Below, one piece after another: positions 36,784 through 52,614 of a stretch of 64,000 nucleotides of DNA; position 1 is the first letter of the stretch, and the number at the start of each line of letters is the position of its first letter. Origin of the DNA: Streptomyces sp. NBC_00250. Its GTDB lineage: Bacteria > Actinomycetota > Actinomycetes > Streptomycetales > Streptomycetaceae. The DNA is taken from positions 1,116,001 to 1,180,000 of the forward strand of contig NZ_CP108088.1 in NCBI RefSeq assembly GCF_036192275.1, written 5' to 3'. The notes below the pieces were generated by a model. That model was not told the DNA's origin. It did not search any database and saw only the letters and a program-made list of their open reading frames with translations. The translations under genes and the position numbers were made by a program.

Positions 36784-38832
36784 TCAGTAGGCGGGGACGC
36801 CCGGCCGGAGCGGGGCCACCGCCCGGTCGCCGAACGAAGTCCAGGGGCGCCAGCCGCCACTGGGCCGGTCCTGTACGCGGGTACGGATCCGGCCGTCCGC
36901 CGTGACGGCGAAGACGTGCAGCCGACCGGTGGCGTCGGCCGCGGCCGACGGCGTACCGGCGAGCAGGATGCCGGACTCGCCGAAGTCGTCGCCGGGATCC
37001 CAGGGGCCACCGGGCGCGCGGTGCCATCGGTGGCTGATTCGAGCGCCCCCTGGGGACAGCGCGAAGGCCTCCAGGCGCCCGTCGGCGCTGGGCGCGAGCA
37101 ACGGGGCCGCCTCCGTCCAGCCGAACAGCGACTGCCAGCCGTCCCAGCCGCCGCTGGGCACGGACTGGCGGCGGTCGAAGGCCCCCATGCCCGACGGGCC
37201 GATCGCTACGACGGCGAGCCTGCCGCTGCCGTCACGGGCCACCCGGGGCGCGGCGCCGGCCGCGGTCCCGAAAGCGTTCCACTCGGCCCAGGGGCCGTTG
37301 GCCGACGTCTGCCACCGGTGGTGGAGCGCCGCCCCGCCCGGCGCCAGGACGAACACCTCCAGGCGGCCGTCGTCGTTGGCCGCGACGACGGGGGGTGCGC
37401 CGGCCGGACCACCGAATCCGGCGGCCCAGGGCTCCCAGACCGGCGACCCCGGGGACGACTGCCTCCGTCGCGCGACGGAGGCGCCCCCCGGGCCGAGGGC
37501 GAAGACCTCAAGGCGGCCGTCGGCGTTGCGGGCGACGGCGGGGGCCGCACCCGCCGGACCGCCGAACTCCTCCCAGTCCCGCCAGCCGCCGTCCGGGCGC
37601 TGCGCCCGGTGGTGCAGGTGGACGCCACCCGGGGCGAGCGAGAAGACCTCCAGACGGCCGTCGGCGTCACGGCCCAGCGTGGGCACGGCCCCGGCCGGCC
37701 CGCCGAAGGCCTCCCACTCCGCCCAGGTGTCGGTGGACGGGTCGACCTGGACGCGCCGCAGCATCGAGCGGTCACCGGCGTCGAGCGCGAAGACGGTCAG
37801 GCGGCCGTCAACGTCGAGCCCGGCGACGGGGTTGTCCGGGCTCTGCCACGACGGTGGTGTGTCCCGCCAGGCCAGCGGAGCCACGTACAGCCCTCGCCGG
37901 AACCATCCGGCGGCACTCGCGTACCAGGCTTCCCCGTCGGCGAAGACCTCGACGGCATGACCGGCGACGTGACCCGCGTACCCGGTCAGGTCGAAGTGGA
38001 AGGGGTCGCGCGAGGCCAGCACGTCGGTGCCCTCGTAGCCGTTGCGCGGACCGATGAACAGGTAGTACCAGCCGTCCCGTTCGACGACGAACGGCGACTC
38101 GGTCACCGAGACGGTCGCGTCCGTGCTCGCGTCGGTGAACGCGACGCCCGGCGCGCTCCAGTGCACCAGGTCGGCGGACCGCCGGTGGGACACGACGTGG
38201 TGGCCGCCCGGGCCGGACAGTTCGGTGTAGTACATGACCCACTCGCCGCCGATCCGGACGACCATCGGGTCGCGGGCCGCGAGCCCCCGGAAGAGGGGGC
38301 CGGACGGTTCACGGGTCCAGGTGACCAGGTCGGTCGAGGTCGCGAGGTTGATCGCGGCACCGCTGGCGCCACCGGCGGCGTAGAACATCCAGAACGTGCC
38401 GCCCGCCTCGACGACGTGCGGCGCCCACAGGTGCTCCTCCCCGAAATAGGAGGGGTCGACGGTGAGCGCGTCGGCGTGGCTGGTCCACGGCCCGTGCGGA
38501 GTCGCCGCGGAGGCATGGGCGAAGGAGACCTCCCCCGAGCTGTCGGGGGACTCGCCGGGCGGTGCGCTGTCCCCGACGATGCTGAACAGGTGCCAGCGGC
38601 CTTGAGCCCTGATCACCGTGTGGTCGTTGAGATAGCGCGGACGGGCAGGGGTGGACGGGTCGTAGACGTGGGTGAAGGGTGCGGCCGCGCCGACCCATGA
38701 AGCGGGCGGAACGGCGGGGGTGCGGGCTGCGGTGCCGGCCGTGGTCGCTGCGGCTCCGCCGGGGAGCAGGAGCGGAAGCGCGCCCGCCCCCGCGGCGCCG
38801 CGCAACAGGTTCCGTCGGCTGATCGGAAACAT
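36784..38832 (-). CDS. Tat-exported GH32/43-like protein with PLL-type lectin propeller
   Basis: 682 residues. Tat signal SRRNLLRGAAGAGALPLLL. Residues about 45-340 look like the five-bladed propeller of the GH32/43/62/68 group, with the three acid sites YLNDHTVI, ARDPMVV and TESPFVV. Residues about 350-680 are repeats of DGRLEVFALGPGG followed by W..W..FGGPAG, the PLL lectin-type seven-bladed propeller that binds sugars. It probably attacks a fructose- or arabinose-containing glycan and holds on with the lectin. The same lectin repeats end the neighbouring M23 protein. The stop is 29 bp from the next esterase start. Confidence 0.82.
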   Translation of the reverse strand: MFPISRRNLLRGAAGAGALPLLLPGGAAATTAGTAARTPAVPPASWVGAAAPFTHVYDPSTPARPRYLNDHTVIRAQGRWHLFSIVGDSAPPGESPDSSGEVSFAHASAATPHGPWTSHADALTVDPSYFGEEHLWAPHVVEAGGTFWMFYAAGGASGAAINLATSTDLVTWTREPSGPLFRGLAARDPMVVRIGGEWVMYYTELSGPGGHHVVSHRRSADLVHWSAPGVAFTDASTDATVSVTESPFVVERDGWYYLFIGPRNGYEGTDVLASRDPFHFDLTGYAGHVAGHAVEVFADGEAWYASAAGWFRRGLYVAPLAWRDTPPSWQSPDNPVAGLDVDGRLTVFALDAGDRSMLRRVQVDPSTDTWAEWEAFGGPAGAVPTLGRDADGRLEVFSLAPGGVHLHHRAQRPDGGWRDWEEFGGPAGAAPAVARNADGRLEVFALGPGGASVARRRQSSPGSPVWEPWAAGFGGPAGAPPVVAANDDGRLEVFVLAPGGAALHHRWQTSANGPWAEWNAFGTAAGAAPRVARDGSGRLAVVAIGPSGMGAFDRRQSVPSGGWDGWQSLFGWTEAAPLLAPSADGRLEAFALSPGGARISHRWHRAPGGPWDPGDDFGESGILLAGTPSAAADATGRLHVFAVTADGRIRTRVQDRPSGGWRPWTSFGDRAVAPLRPGVPAY

Positions 38833-38923: not shown

Positions 38924-40504
38924 TCAGTTCATGGGAGGACCAGCGGTGTTGTTCACCCAGCCCCACTCGGACCAGGACGAGAATCCGGTCTGCCATCGGT
39001 GGTACGTGCCGGTCGGGTTGGTGCCGAAGACCTCGATGCGGCCGTCCGCGTTGGTGGTGGCGGTGACCTCCGTGCCGCCGGTGCCGAACGTGGCCCACTC
39101 GCTGTACGGCGCGTTGACCCCGGTCTGCCAGGCATGCACCGCCGTCTCCCCGTTCATCGCGAACACCTCGACACGACCGTCCGGCGTACGCTCACTACTG
39201 AGCTGCGCGTTCGCAGGACCACCGGTCGGCTCCCACTCCGACCAACTCGCCGGACCCGTCTGATACTTGTGGAACACACCCACCGGCCCCGAGGCGAACA
39301 CCTCCAGGCGACCATCGGCATTGTGATCGACAGTCACGTCATGCCCACCGCCCCCGAACGTGTCCCACTGCGACCAGCCACCATTCGGAGCCGTCTGGTA
39401 CCGATGCTGGAACGTGCTCCCGTTCATGGCGAACACCTCAAGACGACCGTCCGGAGACTTCTCCATCTCCACACGACTGTCGGCAGGACCACCACCAGCG
39501 GACTCCCACTCCGACCAACCACCGTTCGGAGCCCCCTGATACCGATGGAACAACCCCACCGGACCAGACGCATAAACCTCGATCCGGCCGTCCGCATTCA
39601 CACCCGCCGCCACATCACGACCACCCCCACCGAAGGCCTCCCAACTCGACCAACCACCCGACGGAGACAGCTGATAACGGTGCTGGAACGTACTCCCGTT
39701 CAGCGCGAACACCTCCAGACGACCGTCCGCGTTCGGAGCGATGGCGAGTTCCGCGTTGCCCGGACCGCCGAGCGACTCCCACGCGGACCAGTTGCCGTTG
39801 GACTGCAGCTGCCAGGCGTGGTGCACACCGTCGGCAGCCGCGGCGAACACCTCGAGGCGCCCGTCCGCGGACCTCGCGGACACCACCCGGCCCGACTCCG
39901 CCGGGTACACCAGCGGCGGCCTGGGCGGCGGACCGCCGGTGCCCGGGACGCAGGGCAGTGTGATGCCGCCCTCGGCGAGGTAGAGCTCGGGGTCGATGCC
40001 GTACGAGGCGGACGGGTCTCCCCAGATCCGCAGGTGCAGATGGGAGCCGGACGAGTTGCCCTCGGAGCCCATCAGGGCGATCCGCTGGCCGGCCACGACG
40101 TGGTCGCCGACGGAGACGTCCCGCTGGTACATGTGCCCGTACTCGGAGATCCTCCCGTCGGCGTGCTGGATGCGGATCCACTGGCCGTAGTCGCCGACGT
40201 AGCCGGAGATGGTCACTTCGCCGTCGCCGACGGCGTAGATCGGCGTGCCGAGGTCGTCGCCGATGTCCACGCCGTTGTGACCGCTGTGATAGGGCTGGGT
40301 GACCACTCCGGTGGTCGGGCACGCGGCTGCGGAGGTGGCGGTCCGGGCGGCGGCGGGAGTCGTGGCCACCAGGCCCGGCAGAAGCGCGGCGACGACAGCG
40401 AGAACGTAGATCACGGCACGTCGCGACAGCGGTGACAGGCGGGGCAGTAGTGACGAGCGGGGCGGTGGGGACAGGCGGGTCAGTGGGGACAGTCCCAGAA
40501 GCAC
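38924..40504 (-). CDS. secreted M23 metallopeptidase with PLL-type lectin propeller
   Basis: 526 residues from a GTG with GGGGAGG eight bases upstream. A signal anchor (AVIYVLAVVAALLPGLVA) is followed by an M23/LytM domain: SGHNGVDIGDDLGTPIYAVGDG, EYGHMYQRDVSVGDHV, and SSGSHLHLRIWG, giving the HxxxD and HxH zinc ligands. Such domains cut peptidoglycan cross-bridges. Residues about 210-526 are PLL-type propeller blades (DGRLEVFALNGSTFQHRYQ, SGGWSSWEAFGGGG). Codon use in the blades at about 39180-39740 is richer in T-ending codons than the peptidase part. It is second in the exported-protein operon. Confidence 0.87.
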   Translation of the reverse strand: MLLGLSPLTRLSPPPRSSLLPRLSPLSRRAVIYVLAVVAALLPGLVATTPAAARTATSAAACPTTGVVTQPYHSGHNGVDIGDDLGTPIYAVGDGEVTISGYVGDYGQWIRIQHADGRISEYGHMYQRDVSVGDHVVAGQRIALMGSEGNSSGSHLHLRIWGDPSASYGIDPELYLAEGGITLPCVPGTGGPPPRPPLVYPAESGRVVSARSADGRLEVFAAAADGVHHAWQLQSNGNWSAWESLGGPGNAELAIAPNADGRLEVFALNGSTFQHRYQLSPSGGWSSWEAFGGGGRDVAAGVNADGRIEVYASGPVGLFHRYQGAPNGGWSEWESAGGGPADSRVEMEKSPDGRLEVFAMNGSTFQHRYQTAPNGGWSQWDTFGGGGHDVTVDHNADGRLEVFASGPVGVFHKYQTGPASWSEWEPTGGPANAQLSSERTPDGRVEVFAMNGETAVHAWQTGVNAPYSEWATFGTGGTEVTATTNADGRIEVFGTNPTGTYHRWQTGFSSWSEWGWVNNTAGPPMN

Positions 40505-41899: not shown

Positions 41900-42517
41900 T
41901 CAGACCGAGAAGATCGTGGTCCCCGTCGTGGCGGCCACCGCCGCGACGGCCCCGCGGTCCCCGTCGGTCCACTCCAGCAGCCTGAGGTCGTCGTCCCGGC
42001 CGGCCTTCAGCCGGGCTTCCCCGCGGACCCAGAGGCGGAGCAGCGCCGGGTCGGGGTCAGGGTGGGCGACGGCCTCGGCGAGTTCCGCCTCGGGCAGCAG
42101 ACGCCGGAGGACGCGCAGGGGGCCCGGCCGGCGTGTCGAGGGCTCGACGTCGATGCCGATCGCGTCGGGGCCGACGGCCGCCGCGACCAGGCCGTCGGCG
42201 TGGCTGAGGCTGACGCCCACCCCGGGGCGGTCGCGCAGATACGGGCGTCCGTGGCCGTGCCGACCGCACTCGGGGCACAGTTGGGCGAGGTCCGCCGCGG
42301 CCGGCGGCAGGCCGGTGTAGCGGGCCACGCACAGGCGGACGAGGAGTCGCGCCGCCATCACGTCGTCGCGGCGGCCCGGGACTCGTATCCCCGCGAGGCG
42401 GCGCAGTTCCCAGGACGTCAGCAGGCCCTCGTCCAGGTCCGGATGGGCCAGTACCTCCCGGGTGGTCGCCACGACCGCGAGGGCCGTGTCCCGGGCCGGC
42501 CCCGGACCGTCCGTCAC
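41900..42517 (-). CDS. 4'-phosphopantetheinyl transferase
   Basis: 205 residues from a GTG 13 bp after the carrier-protein stop. The Sfp/Het-I type motifs are clear: VGVSLSHADGLVAAAV, IGIDVEPSTRR (Mg-binding acid pair) and WVRGEARLKAGRDD (the WxxKEA variant). A Cys pair, CPECGRHGHGRPYL, matches the P1 region. It should transfer phosphopantetheine from CoA to Ser of the carrier protein encoded just upstream. A dedicated PPTase in the same operon is strong support for that carrier being active. Confidence 0.93.
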   Translation of the reverse strand: MTDGPGPARDTALAVVATTREVLAHPDLDEGLLTSWELRRLAGIRVPGRRDDVMAARLLVRLCVARYTGLPPAAADLAQLCPECGRHGHGRPYLRDRPGVGVSLSHADGLVAAAVGPDAIGIDVEPSTRRPGPLRVLRRLLPEAELAEAVAHPDPDPALLRLWVRGEARLKAGRDDDLRLLEWTDGDRGAVAAVAATTGTTIFSV

Positions 42518-42530
42518 CGTCGGCGGGCGG

Positions 42531-42764
42531 TCAGCCGGCGGCGGCGCTCAGGAAGCGTTCCTGGACGCGGCCGAGGGTGCGGAAGTCGTCGATGGTGACT
42601 TCCTGGAGGTCGATGGTGTTCCCGGAGAGTTCCTCCAGGAGGTCGATGAACTCCAGGAAGTCCATCGAGTCGATGAGACGCGCCTCGATGAGGTCCTCGT
42701 CGTCGGCGATCGGGCCGTCGAGGCCTGGGTTCTTCTCGTGAAGCCACTCGGCGATGCGTTCCAT
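42531..42764 (-). CDS. free-standing carrier protein (phosphopantetheine type)
   Basis: 77 residues, ATG with AAGGAG upstream. Acidic helical protein with the attachment motif LIDSMDFLEFIDLLEEL, Ser being the phosphopantetheine site, and the usual preceding DEDLIEARLID. It is too small to be part of a module and stands between an amino acid:carrier ligase gene and a PPTase gene, so it is most simply the acceptor of an aminoacyl thioester. The dioxygenase and condensation protein of the divergent operon are its likely clients. Confidence 0.93.
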   Translation of the reverse strand: MERIAEWLHEKNPGLDGPIADDEDLIEARLIDSMDFLEFIDLLEELSGNTIDLQEVTIDDFRTLGRVQERFLSAAAG

Positions 42765-42835
42765 GGGGAGGGGTCGCTCCTTACTGGTGGTGCGGGGTCA
42801 CGTGAGGGTGTGGGTGGGTGCGCCGGGCAGCCGGG

Positions 42836-43693
42836 TCACCGGCGGGCGTCGTGGAGCCGGTCCAGGGCCCGCTCGGGGCTGCCATGGGTGAGGATCATGG
42901 CGTGGACCCAGCGTTCGATGCCGAAGGCGACGCACGCGCTGTACGCCGGGCCCTGCTCGCCCGCGCGGATGTCCAGCCGTTCGCCGAAGAAGTTGCGGTG
43001 CCGGTTCACCGAGGCGATGGCCGTGCCGTCGGGGGCGCAGAACTCGTGCTTGACCGGGTCGAGTGCCATCAGCCGGGCCCGGGAGCCGCCCTTGTCGTAG
43101 AACGGGTCGTCGGCCACGGCCCTGTTCAGTTCCAGACCGAGGAGGGCCGCCGCCTCAAGGATGAACTCGGCGCCCGTCTCCAGGTGCTCGAGCGAGCCCT
43201 GCTTGGTGCCGAGGTACAGGACCTCGCGCATGTGGAAGCCCCACAGGCGGCGCAGCCCGTCGTAGTGGGTCTCGTTGCGGAAGCAGCGTCCGGCGGCGGA
43301 GAGGCGGAGGCCGGCCTCGCCGACGTCACGGCCTTCGAGGGAGAGGAGCAGTCCGTAGCAGGTGGCGGACGGCAGCAGGTAGCCGGTCGGCTGCAGCGGC
43401 AGCTCCCCCGGTGTCCCTCCGGCCGCGAGCCCGTCGAGCGCGTCGGGGGCGAACCGCCCCGCGGAGACGCCGAGATGGGGGAAGTTGCGGAAGAAGTCGA
43501 GCCGGGACAGTCCGTCCACGGACAGCAGCGGTGGGCCGACGACCTCGGGCGCGGAGAGCCGTGCGGCGAGTCCGGTGAGCAGGTCGTCCAGTCCGCGCAG
43601 GAGCGCGGTGCGGACCGGGTCCAGCGTGATCAGGCCCGGGCCGGGGCTCTTCAGGCCACCGTCCGGCAGGGCCGTGGTGCTGGGTGTGCTCAT
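42836..43693 (-). CDS. amino acid:[carrier protein] ligase, class II aaRS-like
   Basis: 285 residues from the ATG at 43693 (GAGGGAG eight bases upstream). It matches the truncated seryl-tRNA-synthetase-like ligases that make aminoacyl-AMP and load it on a carrier protein instead of tRNA. Motif 2 is RCFRNETHYDGLRRLWGFHMRE and motif 3 is ACVAFGIERWVHAMIL. The three zinc ligands of the atypical SerRS type are in place: Cys in PSATCYG, Glu in FRNETHY and Cys in YSACVAF. No tRNA-binding arm is present. Carrier protein and PPTase genes follow in the same operon. Glycine, alanine or serine are the usual substrates; which one is used here cannot be read off. Confidence 0.88.
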   Translation of the reverse strand: MSTPSTTALPDGGLKSPGPGLITLDPVRTALLRGLDDLLTGLAARLSAPEVVGPPLLSVDGLSRLDFFRNFPHLGVSAGRFAPDALDGLAAGGTPGELPLQPTGYLLPSATCYGLLLSLEGRDVGEAGLRLSAAGRCFRNETHYDGLRRLWGFHMREVLYLGTKQGSLEHLETGAEFILEAAALLGLELNRAVADDPFYDKGGSRARLMALDPVKHEFCAPDGTAIASVNRHRNFFGERLDIRAGEQGPAYSACVAFGIERWVHAMILTHGSPERALDRLHDARR

Positions 43694-43928
43694 GGAAACC
43701 GCTCCCTCTGGGCGTGGGCGAACATTCAAGGGTGTCGGCCGGACGGTCGGAACGAATTCGCTGCGGCGTCGTCGCAGTGCCGCGTACACGTTTCTTCGTG
43801 TACGCGGGTACGTACGAACGTCCCTGGATGTGGTCGCCGTTGACCGCAGCGCGCAGCAGCGAACAACCGGCTGATGTCCCGTCAGGGACCGGACTGCGCA
43901 GGGGGACACTAAGCCAGCCGCGCAGCTG

Positions 43929-43940
43929 TTGTCTAGACCA
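43929..43940. promoter_or_regulatory. dre-like operator 1 (DasR/GntR type)
   Basis: TTGTCTAGACCA differs at one base from the palindrome TGGTCTAGACCA, which is the centre of the DasR-responsive element consensus in Streptomyces (from memory). It lies in the spacer shared by the two operons, 236 bp from the ligase start. Confidence 0.55.
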
Positions 43941-44018
43941 AAGCCGCCGGGGCGTGGAGTATGTCCGAGTCACATCCGGATCGCGAAGACGTCACAACTC
44001 CGCATATTGAGATGACAC

Positions 44019-44048
44019 TTGACAGCGGCTATGGTCTAAACCAATTCT
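44019..44048 (+). promoter_or_regulatory. candidate vegetative promoter of the dioxygenase operon
   Basis: TTGACA at 44019-44024 and AATTCT at 44043-44048 are 18 bp apart. The -10 is a weak match, but dre-like operator 2 sits exactly in this spacer, as in a repressible promoter. The dioxygenase start is 140 bp downstream, leaving a long leader. Confidence 0.45.
44032..44043. promoter_or_regulatory. dre-like operator 2 (DasR/GntR type)
   Basis: TGGTCTAAACCA differs at one base from TGGTCTAGACCA. It overlaps the candidate promoter of the plus-strand operon. The centre-to-centre distance to operator 1 is 103 bp, near ten helical turns. Confidence 0.55.
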
Positions 44049-44188
44049 TCTGAACGACGTGGCCACCGACGACGCCCGGCCCCTCGCCCCGCGGGTGCTC
44101 CACGAGGGGTTCCTCGCGCTCCGGGCCCGGCCCGCGCTGCCGCCGAGCCGAGCCGAACCGCCTCCCCGACTCCCGCTGGAGGGACCGC

Positions 44189-45292
44189 ATGACGACACCC
44201 GCACCCCATCGCCCCCGCCGCCGCCCCCATCTCCACCGGGCGGCCTCGGACCTGCCGTACTTCAGCGCGGACGGCGAGTCCTATCTCGCCCAGACCACTC
44301 TGCGGGAGCTGAAGAAGTCCCAGCCGCTGAGGGTGCTGTCCGAGGAGGACTTCGCCCACTGGCAGACGTACGGCTACGTGATCGTCCGGGAGGCGATCCC
44401 CGCGGAGGCGGCGAAGCGCCTCCTCGACTTCACCTGGGACTTCCAGGGCCTCGATCCGGACAGGCCGGAGAGCTGGTACGAGGACCGGCCGTTCCGCTCC
44501 GAACTGGACCAGCAGCTGCACGTCTACGGCTTCGTCGAGGCGTACCACCACCAGCTCCTCTGGGACAACCGGCAGGCCCAGCGCGTGTACGACGCCTTCG
44601 TGGACGTGTGGGACTGCGAGGAGCTGTGGGTCACCCAGGACCGGCTCAACCTCAACCCGCCCAACGTCGGGAACCGTGACCGCGCCCTGATCGAACCCAC
44701 CGACCGCGGCTTCGACATCGAGCTCCACTGGGACATCGACACCACGCTCGGGGTCCCGCCGCAGCGGGTGCAGGGGATCATCGCGCTCAACGACACCCGG
44801 CCGGAATCGGGCGGATTCCAGTGCAATCCGGAGCTGTTCCGCAGGTTCGAGGAGTGGAAGTTCGGGCAGCCGGCCGACCGTGACCCCCTCCGCCCCGCCG
44901 TGGACCGCACCGAGTACCCCGTCGTACGCCCCGACCTGCACCCCGGTGACCTGCTGATCTGGAACGGCCTCCTCGCCCACGGCGTCGCGCGCAACGTCTC
45001 CCGGGACCAGGTGCGGGCGGTCCAGTACCTGTCGATGATGCCGGCCCTCGAGGAGCACGAGCGCCTGAAGCGCTCCCGCGTCGACTCCTGGCGCCACCTG
45101 CGGACCCCTCGCTGGAACCGCACGCTGGTCGGGGACCCCGTACTCCACGAGTCCGAGCGGTACCCCACGGCCACCCTGAACGAACTCGGCAGCCGACTGC
45201 TCGGACTCACCTCGTGGAAGGACCGGGGCGAGGCCGAGAGGTCGGGCGTCTCCGGCCAGGGCGGGGAGCCGGCGTGCGCCGTGTCTGCCTGA
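44189..45292 (+). CDS. phytanoyl-CoA dioxygenase (PhyH) family Fe(II)/2-oxoglutarate oxygenase
   Basis: 367 residues, ATG preceded by GGAGGG with ideal spacing. The jelly-roll core shows the metal triad as H-x-D in IELHWDIDTTLG and a distal His in GLLAHGVARN, with the 2-oxoglutarate Arg in QVRAVQYLSM. N-terminal part: EDFAHWQTYGYVIVREAIP, typical of PhyH. It should hydroxylate (or otherwise oxidise) a substrate; with a carrier-protein loading system divergently encoded, an aminoacyl-S-carrier is the best guess. The 3' end overlaps the next gene by 19 bp. Confidence 0.92.
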   Translation: MTTPAPHRPRRRPHLHRAASDLPYFSADGESYLAQTTLRELKKSQPLRVLSEEDFAHWQTYGYVIVREAIPAEAAKRLLDFTWDFQGLDPDRPESWYEDRPFRSELDQQLHVYGFVEAYHHQLLWDNRQAQRVYDAFVDVWDCEELWVTQDRLNLNPPNVGNRDRALIEPTDRGFDIELHWDIDTTLGVPPQRVQGIIALNDTRPESGGFQCNPELFRRFEEWKFGQPADRDPLRPAVDRTEYPVVRPDLHPGDLLIWNGLLAHGVARNVSRDQVRAVQYLSMMPALEEHERLKRSRVDSWRHLRTPRWNRTLVGDPVLHESERYPTATLNELGSRLLGLTSWKDRGEAERSGVSGQGGEPACAVSA

Positions 45293-46608
45293 CCCTCCCC
45301 ACCAACCGGTCCTGCGCCGACACCCTCCGGGCGGTGGCCGAGGAGGCCGCGTACGGTGCCCGCCGCTTCGGCGTCGAGGTACGTCTCCTCGTCCTGGACT
45401 CCTCCGACGCGACGGTGCTCGCCGAACACCGGAAGGCAGTGGCCTCGCTGCCCGCGGTCCCCGGCGTGACCGTGCACCACTTCGACGAGGACGAGCAGCG
45501 GGCCTTCCTTCGGGACGTGATCGCCCGGTCCGGCGTCACCGCGCCCGACCGTGTGCTCGGTCTGATGCTGCCGGACCGGGTCTCCTACGGAGCGTGCACC
45601 AACCGGGCCTTCCTCATCGCGGAGGCCCTCGGTTGTACGTCGGTCCACCGCCGGGACTCGGACAGCCGCTACCAGTGCCTGGACGGCGAGCCGGTCTTTC
45701 CGCTCCACCACGAGCTGTCGACGCTGGGGCTGCGGGCCGCCGACGTGGCCGGCCTGGTGTCCCGCAGCAGGCTCGACCCCGCGTACGCGGACCGGCCGGT
45801 GGCCCTGGTCGGCGGCTCCTTCGTCGGCGAGATGTCCGTGGACGTCGAGGAGATCCGCCGCCTCGACCCCGTCGTCTACGAGGACGTCGTCGGCCTGTCG
45901 ATCCCGGACGGCTACCCGGAGATCTGGCGCAGGAACCTGATCGCGGAGTCCTTCCGGGGCGCCGGGACCGCCGCGTACACCGGGGACCGGACCACGCTCA
46001 TGAGCGTCAGCCCGATGCGCGTGGACATGTGCAACATCGCCTTCGACCGCGAGGTGTACGGCCGGGTTCCCCTGCCGCCCGCCACCGACACCATCGGCAG
46101 TGACTACTTCCTCATCCACCTGGTCCAGCACGCCGGGCTCCCAGGGGTCCTCCACAACCGACACATCGTCAATTTCCATACGCGCGAACGCCGTTCCGAG
46201 AGCGGCTTCCTCACCTACCAGCTGCGCTTCGCCAAGTTCCTCCTCTCCGCGCCCCACTTCAACGCCGTGTACGCCGCGATGAAGGAGGCCGGTGACGCAC
46301 TGCTGGACACCGAGGGCCACGTCCGGGCGTCCGCCGTCGCCGGATTCGTCAGGGACGGCACCGGCGTGGACCGGTCGGAGAACGCCGAACGGCTCGCCGT
46401 CCTCGACCGCTCGTACCGCGCCCTCGGCAGCCGCTACACCACGGCCGCCGATGTCCTGGCCTCCCTCCGTGAACAGCTCCTCGACGAGGCCCGGCAGGAC
46501 ATGGAGGAGTTCGCCCTCCTGACCGAGGCCTGGGAGGCCCTGACCCGCGCGAGCCGGGCGCGCTCCCGCCCCGAGCCGCTTCACGAGTCCGCGAGAGGCA
46601 CCGCATGA
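45274..46608 (+). CDS. DUF6271-like protein with GT-A glycosyltransferase features
   Basis: 444 residues from a GTG (GGGGAG five bases upstream) inside the end of the dioxygenase gene. The N-terminus VRRVCLTLPTNRSCADTLRAV looks like the first strand of a GT-A nucleotide-sugar fold, and NRAFLIAEALGCTSVHRRDSDSRYQ carries a DSD, matching the DxD metal site. A further RVDMCNIAFDREVYGRVPLPP and DTIGSDYFLIHLV could be the acceptor side. I associate it with the DUF6271 family from memory; its activity is not known. It could add a sugar or carry out another nucleotide-dependent transfer. Its stop overlaps the next ATG (ATGA). Confidence 0.72.
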   Translation: MRRVCLTLPTNRSCADTLRAVAEEAAYGARRFGVEVRLLVLDSSDATVLAEHRKAVASLPAVPGVTVHHFDEDEQRAFLRDVIARSGVTAPDRVLGLMLPDRVSYGACTNRAFLIAEALGCTSVHRRDSDSRYQCLDGEPVFPLHHELSTLGLRAADVAGLVSRSRLDPAYADRPVALVGGSFVGEMSVDVEEIRRLDPVVYEDVVGLSIPDGYPEIWRRNLIAESFRGAGTAAYTGDRTTLMSVSPMRVDMCNIAFDREVYGRVPLPPATDTIGSDYFLIHLVQHAGLPGVLHNRHIVNFHTRERRSESGFLTYQLRFAKFLLSAPHFNAVYAAMKEAGDALLDTEGHVRASAVAGFVRDGTGVDRSENAERLAVLDRSYRALGSRYTTAADVLASLREQLLDEARQDMEEFALLTEAWEALTRASRARSRPEPLHESARGTA

Positions 46609-48419
46609 GCCCGCACCGTCACCGCCCCCCGGACAGCCAGCACACCCTGACGGTCGCCTACGCGGGCGGCGAGGAGCGCCGGGGCCCCGTCACCATGGGG
46701 CAGGCCAACATGATCCGCTGCATGCTGCGGGACGAGCCCGAGCACATCAACATCCACGACGTGTGGCCGGTGCCCCAAGGGACCCGGACGGAGGCGGCGC
46801 TCGACGCCCTGCGCGCGCTCGCGGTACGGCACGAAGCACTGCGCACGACCTTCCCGCAGGCCCCCGCAAGCGCGCCCGGAAGCCCTCCCCGAGAGCAAGT
46901 GGTCGCGGCGGAGGGAGTGTTCACGGTCACGGTCCTCGACCACGAGGAGCTGCCCGGAGACGCCGCCGGGTACGCCGAGTCGCTGGCCCGCCGGGCCCGC
47001 GCCGAACGCTTCCACCTGGACCGGGACTTCCCCCTCCGCATCTCCCTCGTCGCCGTGTCCGGGGAACCCGTCTTCGTGGCCATGGCGGCGAGCCACGCCG
47101 TGGCCGACGTCAGCGCCCTCGCGGTCCTCAAGGAGGAGTGGCTGATCCTGCTCGCCGGTGGCACGCTCCCCCCGCCGACGTTCCTCACCCCGCTCGACCT
47201 CGCCACCGAGGAGACGACCCCGGCCGGGCTCCGCAAGTCCGAGGCCTCACTGCGGTACTGGGAGCGGATCATCCGCACCGGGCCCCAGGCCATGTTCGCG
47301 GAACCGGGCGCCGAGGGTACCGAGGTGCGGGCCCCGCAGCTCACCCTCCGGTCCCGGCGGGCGGCACGTGCCCTCGCGCTCGTGGCCGAACGCACCGGCG
47401 CCATGCCGTCCACCGTGCTCCTGACCGCGTGGTGCGTACTCGTCGCCCACCGTACGGAGCAGACGACGTGCGTGGCAGCCGCCCCCACCGCCAACCGCCA
47501 CCACTCCCGGCTCGCCCGCTCGGTGAACACCCTGTCCCAGGACGCGCTGCTCTCCCTCGACGTCCGGGTGCCGACCTTCGACGCCCTGCTCAAGAAGGCC
47601 TGGGGAGCCGCGCTCAACGCGTACCGGCACAGCCGGTTCGACGCGGTCCGCCTCTGGGACACGATCGGAGAGACCACCTTCGAGCGCGGCAGCCGGTTCG
47701 CGCGCGATGTCGTCTTCAACGACGTCAGCACCCTGCCCTCGACCGTCGCCTCGATCGCGGGCCCGAGCGATGAGAAGTCGTCGGACGCGGAGCCGAAGAG
47801 GGGCACGGGCGCGGAGCCGGAGGGGGCCGACAGCCCGGAACCGGAACTGGCTTGGGGACCGGAGCAAGTGCTGCCGACCCGCATCCTGACCTTCGTCTAC
47901 GCGACGGAGCCGCTGATCCATCTGAGCACGTGGGTGGATCCCGCGCTGTTCAAGCGGGACGAGGCGGAGGGCTTCCTCACCGGTCTGGTACGGCTCCTGG
48001 AGACGGCCGCCACGGACGACGTACCCCTCGCTTCGCTCACCGAGGTGACGGGCGTCCGTCCGGTCGAGCGCGGGCCGCGATGGTGCCGGGTGGACGGCTG
48101 CTGGACCTCGCCGCCGCTCGTGGCGGAGACGCTGAGCGAGGCCCTTGGGGGCCTGCCCGTCCACGTCACCGTGGACGGGCCGAACGAGAGCGTGCCGCAG
48201 GAGTGGGCCCTGACGGCGTACATCGCCGCCGGTGACACCCCGCTGACACCGGCAGAGGCCCACACCGCACTCATGGACGCGCTCCCCGGCCGCCCCGGAG
48301 TACTGGCACCGCGCCGGTACGTGATCGTCCAGGACCCGCCGGCGGAGGCGGACCGGAGCAGCGCCTGGCTCCGGCAGCAGATTCTCAGGGAAGGGACCGG
48401 CCGGGACCGGCGGATGTGA
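46605..48419 (+). CDS. free-standing condensation-domain protein
   Basis: 604 residues, ATGA-coupled to the previous gene. The NRPS condensation fold is seen in PVTMGQANMIRCML, LDALRALAVRHEALRTTF, FHLDRDFPLRISLV, FVAMAASHAVADVSALAVL and VNTLSQDALLSLDV. The HHxxxDG motif is degenerate (SHAVADV), keeping the catalytic His and the Asp but losing the first His and the Gly. The last about 100 residues (LTAYIAAGDTPLTPAEAHTAL, RPGVLAPRRYVIV) resemble the C-terminal lid of adenylation domains, without the large A core. It may join the carrier-bound amino acid to an acceptor amine or alcohol. Confidence 0.85.
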   Translation: MSPHRHRPPDSQHTLTVAYAGGEERRGPVTMGQANMIRCMLRDEPEHINIHDVWPVPQGTRTEAALDALRALAVRHEALRTTFPQAPASAPGSPPREQVVAAEGVFTVTVLDHEELPGDAAGYAESLARRARAERFHLDRDFPLRISLVAVSGEPVFVAMAASHAVADVSALAVLKEEWLILLAGGTLPPPTFLTPLDLATEETTPAGLRKSEASLRYWERIIRTGPQAMFAEPGAEGTEVRAPQLTLRSRRAARALALVAERTGAMPSTVLLTAWCVLVAHRTEQTTCVAAAPTANRHHSRLARSVNTLSQDALLSLDVRVPTFDALLKKAWGAALNAYRHSRFDAVRLWDTIGETTFERGSRFARDVVFNDVSTLPSTVASIAGPSDEKSSDAEPKRGTGAEPEGADSPEPELAWGPEQVLPTRILTFVYATEPLIHLSTWVDPALFKRDEAEGFLTGLVRLLETAATDDVPLASLTEVTGVRPVERGPRWCRVDGCWTSPPLVAETLSEALGGLPVHVTVDGPNESVPQEWALTAYIAAGDTPLTPAEAHTALMDALPGRPGVLAPRRYVIVQDPPAEADRSSAWLRQQILREGTGRDRRM

Positions 48420-48420
48420 C

Positions 48421-49731
48421 ATGACGATGGATGAGGTAACCGCGCAGCAGGAGCAGGGCTCTCCCCCCAGCCCGTGGCGGTCGAGTCGCTTCCGGCTGTT
48501 CTTCACGGCCCGCAGCACCTCGCTGCTGGCCGACGGCATGCTGATGGTGTCGCTCACGACCGCCGTCCTCGGCGCGGGCTACGGGGCTGCCGGGGTGGGA
48601 TACGCGCTGGCCGCGTGGATGGCGCCGATCGTGCTGCTCGTACTGTTCGGCGGCGTGCTCGCCGACCGGTTCACCCCGCAGGTGATGATGGTCGGCGCCG
48701 ATGTGGTGCGCATGGTGGCCATGCTCGCGCTCGCCGTACTGCTGATCGCCACGGACATACGACTCTGGCAGATCATGGCGCTGTTGGCGCTCAGCGGCGC
48801 CGCGACCGCGATGTTCCAGCCGGGTCTGGCGAGCCTGGTCCCCCAGGTCGCCGAGGACATCCAGCGGGCCAACGCGCTGCTGCGGATCTCCGAGGCGATC
48901 TGCACCCTGCTGGGTCCGGGCGTCGCCGGTCTCCTCGTGGCCTACTGGGACGTGGCGGGCTCCTTCGTGGTCATCGCGGCGGCGTACGCGCTGAGCGCGC
49001 TCGGCCTCGCGCCGCTGCGCAGGCTGAGCACCGCCAAGGACGAGAGCGACGACCCGATGTGGCAGCGGCTGGCCACGGGATGGCACGAGTTCCGGTCGCG
49101 TTCCTGGCTCTGGGGGGTCATCGCCGTATGGGCGGTGTACGGCCTCTTCGTCTTCGGCCCGGCCCTGCCGCTGGGCGCGGCGCTGCTCACCGAACAGCAC
49201 GGGGCCGGCGGCTACGGCTGGATCGCCTCGGCCGACGGCGCCGGAACCATCATCGGCGGCCTGCTCGGCATGCGGGTCCGCCCGCGCCGCCCGCTCGTCG
49301 CGGGGGCCTGCGCGATGTTCTTCTTCGCCCTCAACCCCCTGGCACCGGCCCTCGGTTGGTCGTTCACGGTGACGGCTCTGACCGGGGTCGTGGCGGGCTG
49401 CGGCTTCGCCTTCTGGGGCGTGATGTGGGCGACGAGCGTGCAGTCCCACATTCCCCTCGCGGTCCTGAGCCGTGTCTCGGCCTACGACGTGGCCGGTTCC
49501 ATCATGGTCATCCCCCTGGGCCGAGCCCTGGCCGGCCCGGCGGCGGACGCCTTCGGCGCGGATCGGGTGCTGCTGTTCTCCTCGGTCATGGGCATCGCCC
49601 TCATCGGCGTCATGCTCGCCGTACCCGCGATCCGCGCGCTGGGACGCTCACCGAAGGAGGCGTCGGAGCAGTCGGAGGCGTCGCCGAAGGATTCGTCGAA
49701 GGAGACACCCGTGGCGGTCGCGGACGCGTAG
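48421..49731 (+). CDS. MFS transporter, EntS/enterobactin-exporter-like
   Basis: 436 residues beginning one base after the previous stop. Twelve hydrophobic segments. The motif-A loop is GGVLADRFTPQVMMVGADVVRMV, followed by LLALSGAATAMFQPGLASLVPQVAEDIQRANALL, the pattern of EntS-like siderophore or peptide exporters. The N- and C-termini are cytoplasmic and the C-tail is Ser/Glu/Lys rich. As last gene of the operon it probably exports the pathway product or protects the host from it. Confidence 0.92.
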   Translation: MTMDEVTAQQEQGSPPSPWRSSRFRLFFTARSTSLLADGMLMVSLTTAVLGAGYGAAGVGYALAAWMAPIVLLVLFGGVLADRFTPQVMMVGADVVRMVAMLALAVLLIATDIRLWQIMALLALSGAATAMFQPGLASLVPQVAEDIQRANALLRISEAICTLLGPGVAGLLVAYWDVAGSFVVIAAAYALSALGLAPLRRLSTAKDESDDPMWQRLATGWHEFRSRSWLWGVIAVWAVYGLFVFGPALPLGAALLTEQHGAGGYGWIASADGAGTIIGGLLGMRVRPRRPLVAGACAMFFFALNPLAPALGWSFTVTALTGVVAGCGFAFWGVMWATSVQSHIPLAVLSRVSAYDVAGSIMVIPLGRALAGPAADAFGADRVLLFSSVMGIALIGVMLAVPAIRALGRSPKEASEQSEASPKDSSKETPVAVADA

Positions 49732-52402: not shown

Positions 52403-52526
52403 ATTTCGACGCACCAGGGCCCGGGCCCGGTCGATCCGGCGATGAGCGGCGAATGCTGAGTCTGGAGCAATAGTCTGAGATTGACCGCGGTCTGCCTCTG
52501 CCTGGTTGGGCCATCCCGGCGGGAAG

Positions 52527-52614
52527 TGCCGGGAGGAGGACTCGAACCTCCACTGGAACCGCGGATGTCACGACAAGGCTCAGCTTCAGCTTTGCGCTCC
52601 TCGCGCACCCCGGC
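52527..52614 (-). ncRNA. tRNA-like remnant (acceptor, D-like and T arms)
   Basis: On the minus strand, 88 nt begin with GCCGGGG and end with TCCCGGC plus A. These pair over seven positions (one G-U). A GCGC-GAGGA-GCGC hairpin follows at the D-arm place, and a perfect T-arm (GGAGG-TTCGAGT-CCTCC) precedes the acceptor 3' strand. The anticodon stem does not close properly, the D-loop is too short, and CCA is not encoded, so it is not a working tRNA. Its 5' strand also forms part of a terminator. Confidence 0.3.

Follow-up and report, generated by a model that had tools for sequence, protein, structure and literature searches.

Seven open reading frames (ORFs) at positions 41900-49731 of a 64,000-nucleotide stretch of Streptomyces sp. 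NBC_00250 (the window) form two divergent operons built around an aminoacyl-tRNA synthetase (aaRS)-like amino acid:carrier protein ligase. Here we determined that this seven-gene block is a genuine unit, far beyond chance, because 55 of the 66 ligase-bearing loci found in other genomes have all seven genes. A plausible reading, which we hold tentatively and stop just short of calling probable, is that the cassette is a DasR-regulated biosynthetic unit that joins two older modules, one for acceptor building and one for aminoacylation, followed by export through a major facilitator superfamily (MFS) transporter. Carrier ligases of the aaRS-like kind have been on record since 2010, and for most of them no pathway has, to our knowledge, been defined. 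The cassette is this kind of ligase system in a new variant form, and it is both common and real.

Gene set and distribution of the cassette

The genes and candidate regulatory elements of the cassette are listed below.

41900-42517, minus strand: 4'-phosphopantetheinyl transferase (PPT); Pfam ACPS, 29.7 bits
42531-42764, minus strand: free-standing carrier protein; PP-binding, 15.9 bits (cut-off 20.8); predicted pantetheine site Ser33 (LIDSMDF)
42836-43693, minus strand: aaRS-like amino acid:carrier protein ligase, 285 aa; tRNA-synt_2b, 26.3 bits (cut-off 29.3); 3mey/4h2w, E 1e-19
43929-43940, no strand assigned: dre-like DasR site on the ligase-operon side, TTGTCTAGACCA; one mismatch to TGGTCTARACCA; more than 90% conserved in a 57-sequence alignment
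44019-44024, plus strand: TTGACA, possible -35 element of the PhyH operon; conserved block in the same alignment
44032-44043, no strand assigned: dre-like DasR site on the PhyH side, TGGTCTAAACCA; exact match to TGGTCTARACCA
44189-45292, plus strand: PhyH-type Fe(II)/2-oxoglutarate (2OG) dioxygenase; Pfam PhyH, 37 bits; H180, D182, H264 and R276 invariant
45274-46608, plus strand: DUF6271 protein, modeled with a GT75-like GT-A fold; Pfam DUF6271, 734 bits; invariant D128-S129-D130
46605-48419, plus strand: free-standing condensation-domain (C-domain) protein; Pfam Condensation, 60 bits; HxxxD H164 and D168 conserved
48421-49731, plus strand: MFS transporter, presumed exporter; MFS_1, 73 bits; TIGR00900, 149 bits, below cut-off

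An initial annotation, made from the letters of the window and its ORFs, had delimited the same seven genes at the same coordinates, and its account of their coupling is correct: the PhyH gene (44189-45292) and the DUF6271 gene (45274-46608) overlap by 19 bp, the DUF6271 and C-domain genes have ATGA at 46605-46608 in common, and 1 bp separates the C-domain gene from the MFS gene. The most likely start of the DUF6271 gene is the GTG at 45274. For the ligase, the most likely start is the ATG at 43693 rather than the upstream GTG at 43909; it gives a protein of 285 aa, the exact length of 39 of the 71 called homologues. Neither adenylation nor thioesterase families were matched among the seven proteins in Pfam and NCBIfam, in keeping with the earlier description of a carrier-protein pathway that has no adenylation domain, thioesterase or module. 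In this the cassette is unlike a modular nonribosomal peptide synthetase (NRPS). An Rfam search found no RNA families in the window.

Bacterial genomes were scanned with the ligase. The 66 loci found come from records that are all Streptomyces except one Kitasatospora and one labelled Microtetraspora, and the complete seven-gene cassette is present in 55. Among the 11 incomplete loci, contig ends truncate L038 and L082, the PPT gene is missing from L080, L054 and L058 are hybrids, and L085, L091-L093, L095 and L096 are of a type with an AurF-like gene, both described below. ORF calls across 86 loci gave seven separate genes in the same order in 45, and ten more differ by a fusion of DUF6271 and the C domain. 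This fusion, missed by the initial annotation, occurs in 10 of 61 called homologous genes as a single ORF of 1000-1064 aa (L032, L033, L035, L036, L043, L074, L075, L077, L079 and L115). The locus sets overlap slightly (L088 and L116 share an identical PhyH, and L054 and the G269 match seem to be one genome), and the pooled counts of ORF calls, fusions, dre-like sites upstream of PhyH and residue alignments include a few repeats.

Seven flanking genes of the window (three on one side, four on the other) each recur in at most 7 of the 66 loci, so the cassette ends at the boundaries drawn earlier. A ligase of at least 80% identity was found in 29 of 293 genomes of the order, all within the 89 that have DUF6271 (lists compared by eye). 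The cassette is thus common in Streptomyces, which had been overlooked; Streptomyces griseus (L069) and S. globisporus (L055) are among its carriers. A literature search found no description of this gene set, with MIBiG and subscription journals outside the search, and to that extent it agrees with the earlier failure to recognize a characterized cluster; a search for DUF6271 returned nothing. The available part of PMC12370203, on growth of S. venezuelae on chitin, names no such cluster.

Divergent promoter region and predicted DasR control

Besides the gene starts, the most conserved intergenic stretches in the 57-sequence alignment are TTGTCTAGACCA at 43929, flanked by a partly conserved block, and TGGTCTAAACCA at 44032, which begins 7 bp after the conserved TTGACA that we take to resemble a -35 consensus. 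Both stretches match the core of the DasR-responsive element (dre), for which the available part of PMC4398421 gives the consensus A(G/C)TGGTCTAGACCA(G/C)T. These sites in the shared promoter region were missed by the initial annotation, and the chitin link that they predict is new. Exact TGGTCTARACCA occurs in four places in the 9.27-Mb genome, one of which is the cassette. The others lie between dasR and the gene of a sugar-binding protein that is dasA-like by its position, beside a GntR gene, and beside a gene that is hexosaminidase-like by eye and has no NCBIfam match. The regulator of this genome is DasR, being near identical to the solved protein 4zs8/9i0v.

With up to one mismatch, TGGTCTARACCA is found at 31 distinct places in the genome, of which 18 were opened besides the two of the cassette. 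Some of these adjoin nagB, N-acetylglucosamine (GlcNAc)/glucose-type phosphotransferase system (PTS) genes, HPr, a GbpA-like chitin-binding protein and a chitinase-like gene, with the PTS, GbpA and chitinase assignments scoring below NCBIfam cut-offs. In the window, the dre pattern at up to two mismatches gives four matches against 2.7 expected, and 35 of 100 shuffles had as many, which alone is not significant. At the same threshold, at least two dre-like sites are present in all 55 complete cassettes. A site upstream of PhyH is present in 62 of 64 ligase-bearing loci and in 11 of 14 loci of a related cluster without the ligase (below), compared with 2 of 78 shuffled controls that preserve base content but not dinucleotides. 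The case for DasR is made by the exactness, position, conservation and company of the sites. Given dre-like sites at the starts of both operons, and the same exact site at dasR, the cassette is predicted to be under chitin/GlcNAc control through DasR. Like the known DasR regulon, it has putative dre core sites in a divergent promoter in a genome that encodes DasR, although the regulon as given in the available part of PMC4398421 does not name it.

Two modules and their separate relatives

The ligase is a class II aaRS core without a tRNA-binding domain, as judged from its length of 285 aa and its homology to solved carrier ligases. Residues 28-273 align to Bradyrhizobium ligase 1 (3mey/4h2w), and the two are also alike in motif arginines and in having a neighboring carrier. 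Cys137, Glu157 and Cys254, conserved in an alignment of 68, align with the Cys/Glu/Cys of the Bradyrhizobium enzyme, which we take to be zinc ligands. Overall similarity to this type is low (E 1e-19), with 99 bits against a cut-off of 357 for PRK07080, the NCBIfam model for amino acid--[acyl-carrier-protein] ligase. Known carrier ligases use Ala, Gly or Ser, according to the part of the review PMC9437257 available. The ligase neighborhoods described in the available part of PMC2922099 contain monooxygenase/dehydrogenase, glycosidase and liposaccharide genes; in the window, the ligase is accompanied instead by PhyH, DUF6271, a C-domain protein and an exporter.

The carrier-protein gene adjoins the ligase gene, and a carrier match is present in all 66 ligase loci. 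Ser33 is conserved across 71 aligned carriers and Asp32 across the 62 cassette-type ones; the resemblance to the cispentacin carrier AmcB is weak (15.5 bits, NCBIfam cut-off 80). The PPT gene gave a tblastn match in 62 of 66 ligase loci, is absent from L080 and is uncalled in L114. In the C-domain protein, the motif SHAVADV retains H164 and D168 in 59 of 59 aligned sequences, which bears out its description as a free-standing C domain. Of the catalytic HHxxxDG of NRPS condensation domains it thus keeps HxxxD, the minimal form of the motif, with the first His and the Gly replaced. Its nearest solved relative is tyrocidine synthetase (2jgp, E 5e-9). C-domain proteins occur as well in the AurF-type locus L085 and in the hybrid L054; these two are closer to each other than to that of the window.

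In PhyH, the four residues H180, D182, H264 and R276, invariant in 28 sequences, fit the pattern of an HxD...H triad plus Arg, presumably the facial triad and the 2OG-binding residue. NCBIfam offers no name for PhyH or DUF6271. The latter models as a GT-A core plus a C-terminal helical part, GT75-like in fold over its full length, in line with its earlier labelling as GT-A-like. Its DxD motif, D128-S129-D130, is invariant in 42 sequences and reads NDD in the remote L111. Like the GT75 enzymes (MtdL and plant UAM/RGP), the DUF6271 protein thus has this motif and, by prediction, this fold, whereas the key arginines of GT75 could not be recognized in a weak sequence alignment and the GT75 family PF03214 was unmatched in the Pfam scan of the cassette proteins. 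PF03214 is rare across the phylum sample (2 of 296). An hhalign comparison of DUF6271 with one actinobacterial RGP protein gave no match, and a sequence search of the PDB with DUF6271 gave nothing up to E 10.

Twenty DUF6271 loci were opened: five hold the window cassette, 14 a sister cluster, and one (L111) only DUF6271 and GNAT. The sister cluster consists of PhyH-DUF6271-decarboxylase-GNAT-MFS, each gene being found in 14 of 14 by tblastn, with a family scan on one example (L101). It resembles the cassette in PhyH (66-81% identical, median about 73%), in DUF6271 (about 60% identical), in overlapping genes and in the dre-like site. It differs in having a decarboxylase, GNAT and a different MFS protein, and no ligase, carrier, PPT or C domain at the locus. 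No ligase homologue was found in the 14 sister-cluster genomes beyond one chance-level match (E 0.09). PhyH identity between the types is close to that within the sister type (70-91%), which argues for the same reaction, and the occurrence of PhyH with DUF6271 in genomes without the ligase suggests that PhyH probably does not work on the carrier. The sister decarboxylase is of the Orn/Lys/DAP type, its nearest solved structure being the lysine/ornithine decarboxylase 2plj (E 8e-36). Each cluster type has one possible amine-capping enzyme, GNAT in the sister cluster and the C domain in the window.

The ligase module likewise has relatives of its own. In remoter ligase loci (10 opened of about 80 further matches), an AurF-like gene stood beside the ligase in all 10, and five also have a nitronate-monooxygenase (NMO)-like gene; an AurF-like neighbor is present in all six non-cassette loci of the 66. 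In these Streptomyces AurF-ligase-carrier(-NMO) loci, ligase and carrier are homologous to those of the window, and the AurF-like partner stands in place of PhyH-DUF6271. The hybrid L058 holds AurF-ligase-NMO-carrier together with PhyH-DUF6271-decarboxylase-GNAT. In the trees of PhyH and of DUF6271, L058 and next L054 fall between the sister and window types, the position of L054 relative to two window rows being unsettled for DUF6271. In that tree the window rows form a clade only together with the hybrids, and not by themselves (52% of bootstrap trees). In the ligase tree, PhyH-linked ligases including the hybrids form one clade (99/98), with AurF-linked ligases as nearest neighbors under a midpoint root. 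The trees are built on subsets (34 PhyH including that of the window, from 78 called plus the window; 36 DUF6271; 31 ligases) and rooted at midpoints, with L111 as remote relative for DUF6271; treekit warned of long branches meeting in the ligase tree and of a long L080 branch in the DUF6271 tree. Genomes that hold both a window-type and a ligase-free DUF6271 cluster are rare (1 observed, about 6 expected, P 0.007, with 61 ligase-free DUF6271 carriers counted, of which 15 were opened). The simplest history for these relationships would be a single joining of two modules, after which AurF, decarboxylase and GNAT were lost and the C domain and MFS were gained.

Several side observations concern these relatives. 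The non-cassette ligase adjoins an AurF-like gene and a carrier in L148 (in the same genome as the window, C1:4194300-4214200), L149-L157, L085, L091-L093, L095, L096 and L058, which suggests pathways that oxidize a carrier-bound amino acid. In L148, L154 and L156 the AurF-type ligase lies near methionine-cycle-enzyme-like and methyltransferase-like genes (by eye; L148 partly scanned), and in L151 and L157 near polyketide synthase-like genes. By eye, ATP-grasp, aminotransferase-like and acetylglutamate-kinase-like ORFs flank the ligase in L092-L096, with a Pfam ATP-grasp match in L092, and these flanks are reminiscent of amino-group-carrier (LysW-type) azabicycle clusters. At L111:9361-13026, the remote DUF6271 (46% identical) occurs with GNAT and without PhyH, near ORFs that appear PPT-like, carrier-like and ketosynthase-like by eye. 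In the window itself, neighboring proteins at 36784-38832 and 38924-40504 carry repeats of the NADGRLEVFA type, lectin- or propeller-like by eye. On the minus strand at 52526-52614, some 2.8 kb away from the cassette, ARAGORN calls a tRNA-Ala with anticodon AGC; this anticodon is unusual in a bacterium, and the call is perhaps false.

Proposed pathway and competing explanations

From the gene set, the conserved catalytic residues, the dre-like sites, the swapping of modules and the fusion, all evident in the sequences, we infer substrates, a sugar transfer, an order of steps, a mode of regulation and a product as follows. In the first module, PhyH would hydroxylate what is most likely a free amino acid, perhaps one like lysine or ornithine, and DUF6271 would then modify the hydroxylated acceptor with sugar from a nucleotide sugar. 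The guess of a lysine- or ornithine-like acceptor is made because the sister decarboxylase is nearest to 2plj. In the second module (ligase, carrier and PPT), the ligase would activate one small amino acid and load it onto the carrier. The C-domain protein would transfer the carrier-bound amino acid to the acceptor, and the MFS protein would export the resulting aminoacyl conjugate. DasR would repress both divergent operons until metabolites derived from chitin or GlcNAc release it.

Several points weigh against this proposal. The genes beside several of the 18 opened dre-like sites have no evident link to chitin, and the genome-wide excess of the pattern at up to one mismatch is about twofold (29 and 31 matches against 15 and 15 for a reversed control). 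The hybrids L054 and L058 and 3 of the 14 sister loci have no dre-like site upstream of PhyH. The structure prediction for PhyH is of low confidence (pLDDT 34), and the carrier protein falls under its Pfam cut-off. Sugar transfer by DUF6271 is suggested by its modeled fold and DxD alone, and the catalytic arginines of GT75 have no evident invariant counterpart in a weak sequence alignment. The best NCBIfam score of the sister decarboxylase is to diaminopimelate decarboxylase (131 bits, cut-off 298), so "lysine/ornithine-like" is soft. PhyH may also have a carrier-bound role in the cassette alone, or the sister genomes may encode a carrier elsewhere.

The initial annotation had ordered the steps differently: once on the carrier, the amino acid would be hydroxylated in place by PhyH, after which the C domain would link the oxidized aminoacyl group to an acceptor. 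Its compact carrier pathway, free C domain and GT-A-like DUF6271 stand, while oxidation on the carrier is doubtful, and we regard this order as unlikely. The AurF-like oxygenase beside ligase and carrier elsewhere (10 of 10 opened, and the six AurF-type loci) does mean that carrier oxidation may be a habit of the ligase family and that PhyH could have replaced AurF. However, PhyH with DUF6271 occurs in the 14 clusters of genomes without any ligase homologue, PhyH is nearly as similar between cluster types as within one, and the usual oxygenase neighbor of the ligase is AurF-like. In L058 both oxygenases are present among their respective partners, with AurF next to the ligase and PhyH next to DUF6271. 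DUF6271 could instead be an NDP-sugar pyranose/furanose mutase of the GT75 type that supplies an unusual sugar donor. Its GT75-like model would suit this, but the available part of PMC9937993 gives Arg159 of MtdL as the likely nucleophile and Arg257 as a critical substrate binder, and neither has an evident invariant counterpart in the weak alignment; nor was a separate glycosyltransferase that could use a furanosyl donor recognized in the cassette by Pfam or NCBIfam. We consider a mutase quite improbable.

Aminoacylation of a cell-surface or wall sugar, rather than of a secreted small molecule, is a further alternative. A note added in proof to PMC2922099 suggested it from gene neighbors for a paralogous ligase, the SerRS-like enzyme of Mocibob et al., and both GlcNAc control and a GT-like fold in DUF6271 would agree with it. 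The MFS protein in both cluster types, together with ABC pairs in the two hybrids (by eye), fits small-molecule export, and no wall or polysaccharide families were matched in the seven proteins (Pfam, NCBIfam); this alternative seems to us a little less probable still than a mutase. One C domain and one carrier without an adenylation domain or thioesterase might also be what is left of a larger, decaying NRPS cluster. All seven genes are kept in 55 of 66 loci, motifs and promoter elements are conserved, and fusions keep both proteins, and we reject a degraded remnant as ruled out in practice by this conservation.

The proposal of two joined modules has a broader form, which we consider speculative and rather unlikely. 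The clusters could be a chitin-gated family with a fixed core of hydroxylation and GT75-like sugar modification of a basic amino acid, likened in outline to collagen hydroxylysine glycosylation, and with a swappable amine cap. The cap would be acetyl, added by GNAT, or an amino acid, added by ligase, carrier and free C domain, with L058 and L054 as living intermediates; such clusters would yield a glycosylated aminoacyl amino acid for secretion.

For the carrier ligases, these results place the enzyme in a small, complete and common cassette. There it has natural variants, a likely partner for building the acceptor, and GlcNAc or chitin as predicted inducer, which makes its product and function directly testable. 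DUF6271 gains a model-based structural assignment and a genomic context. The cassette also illustrates the probable joining of a module for carrier loading to a pathway that worked without a carrier. If the chitin-gated family is real, the secreted products of its members would be a new compound class, glycosylated aminoacyl amino acids employed while the cells feed on chitin.

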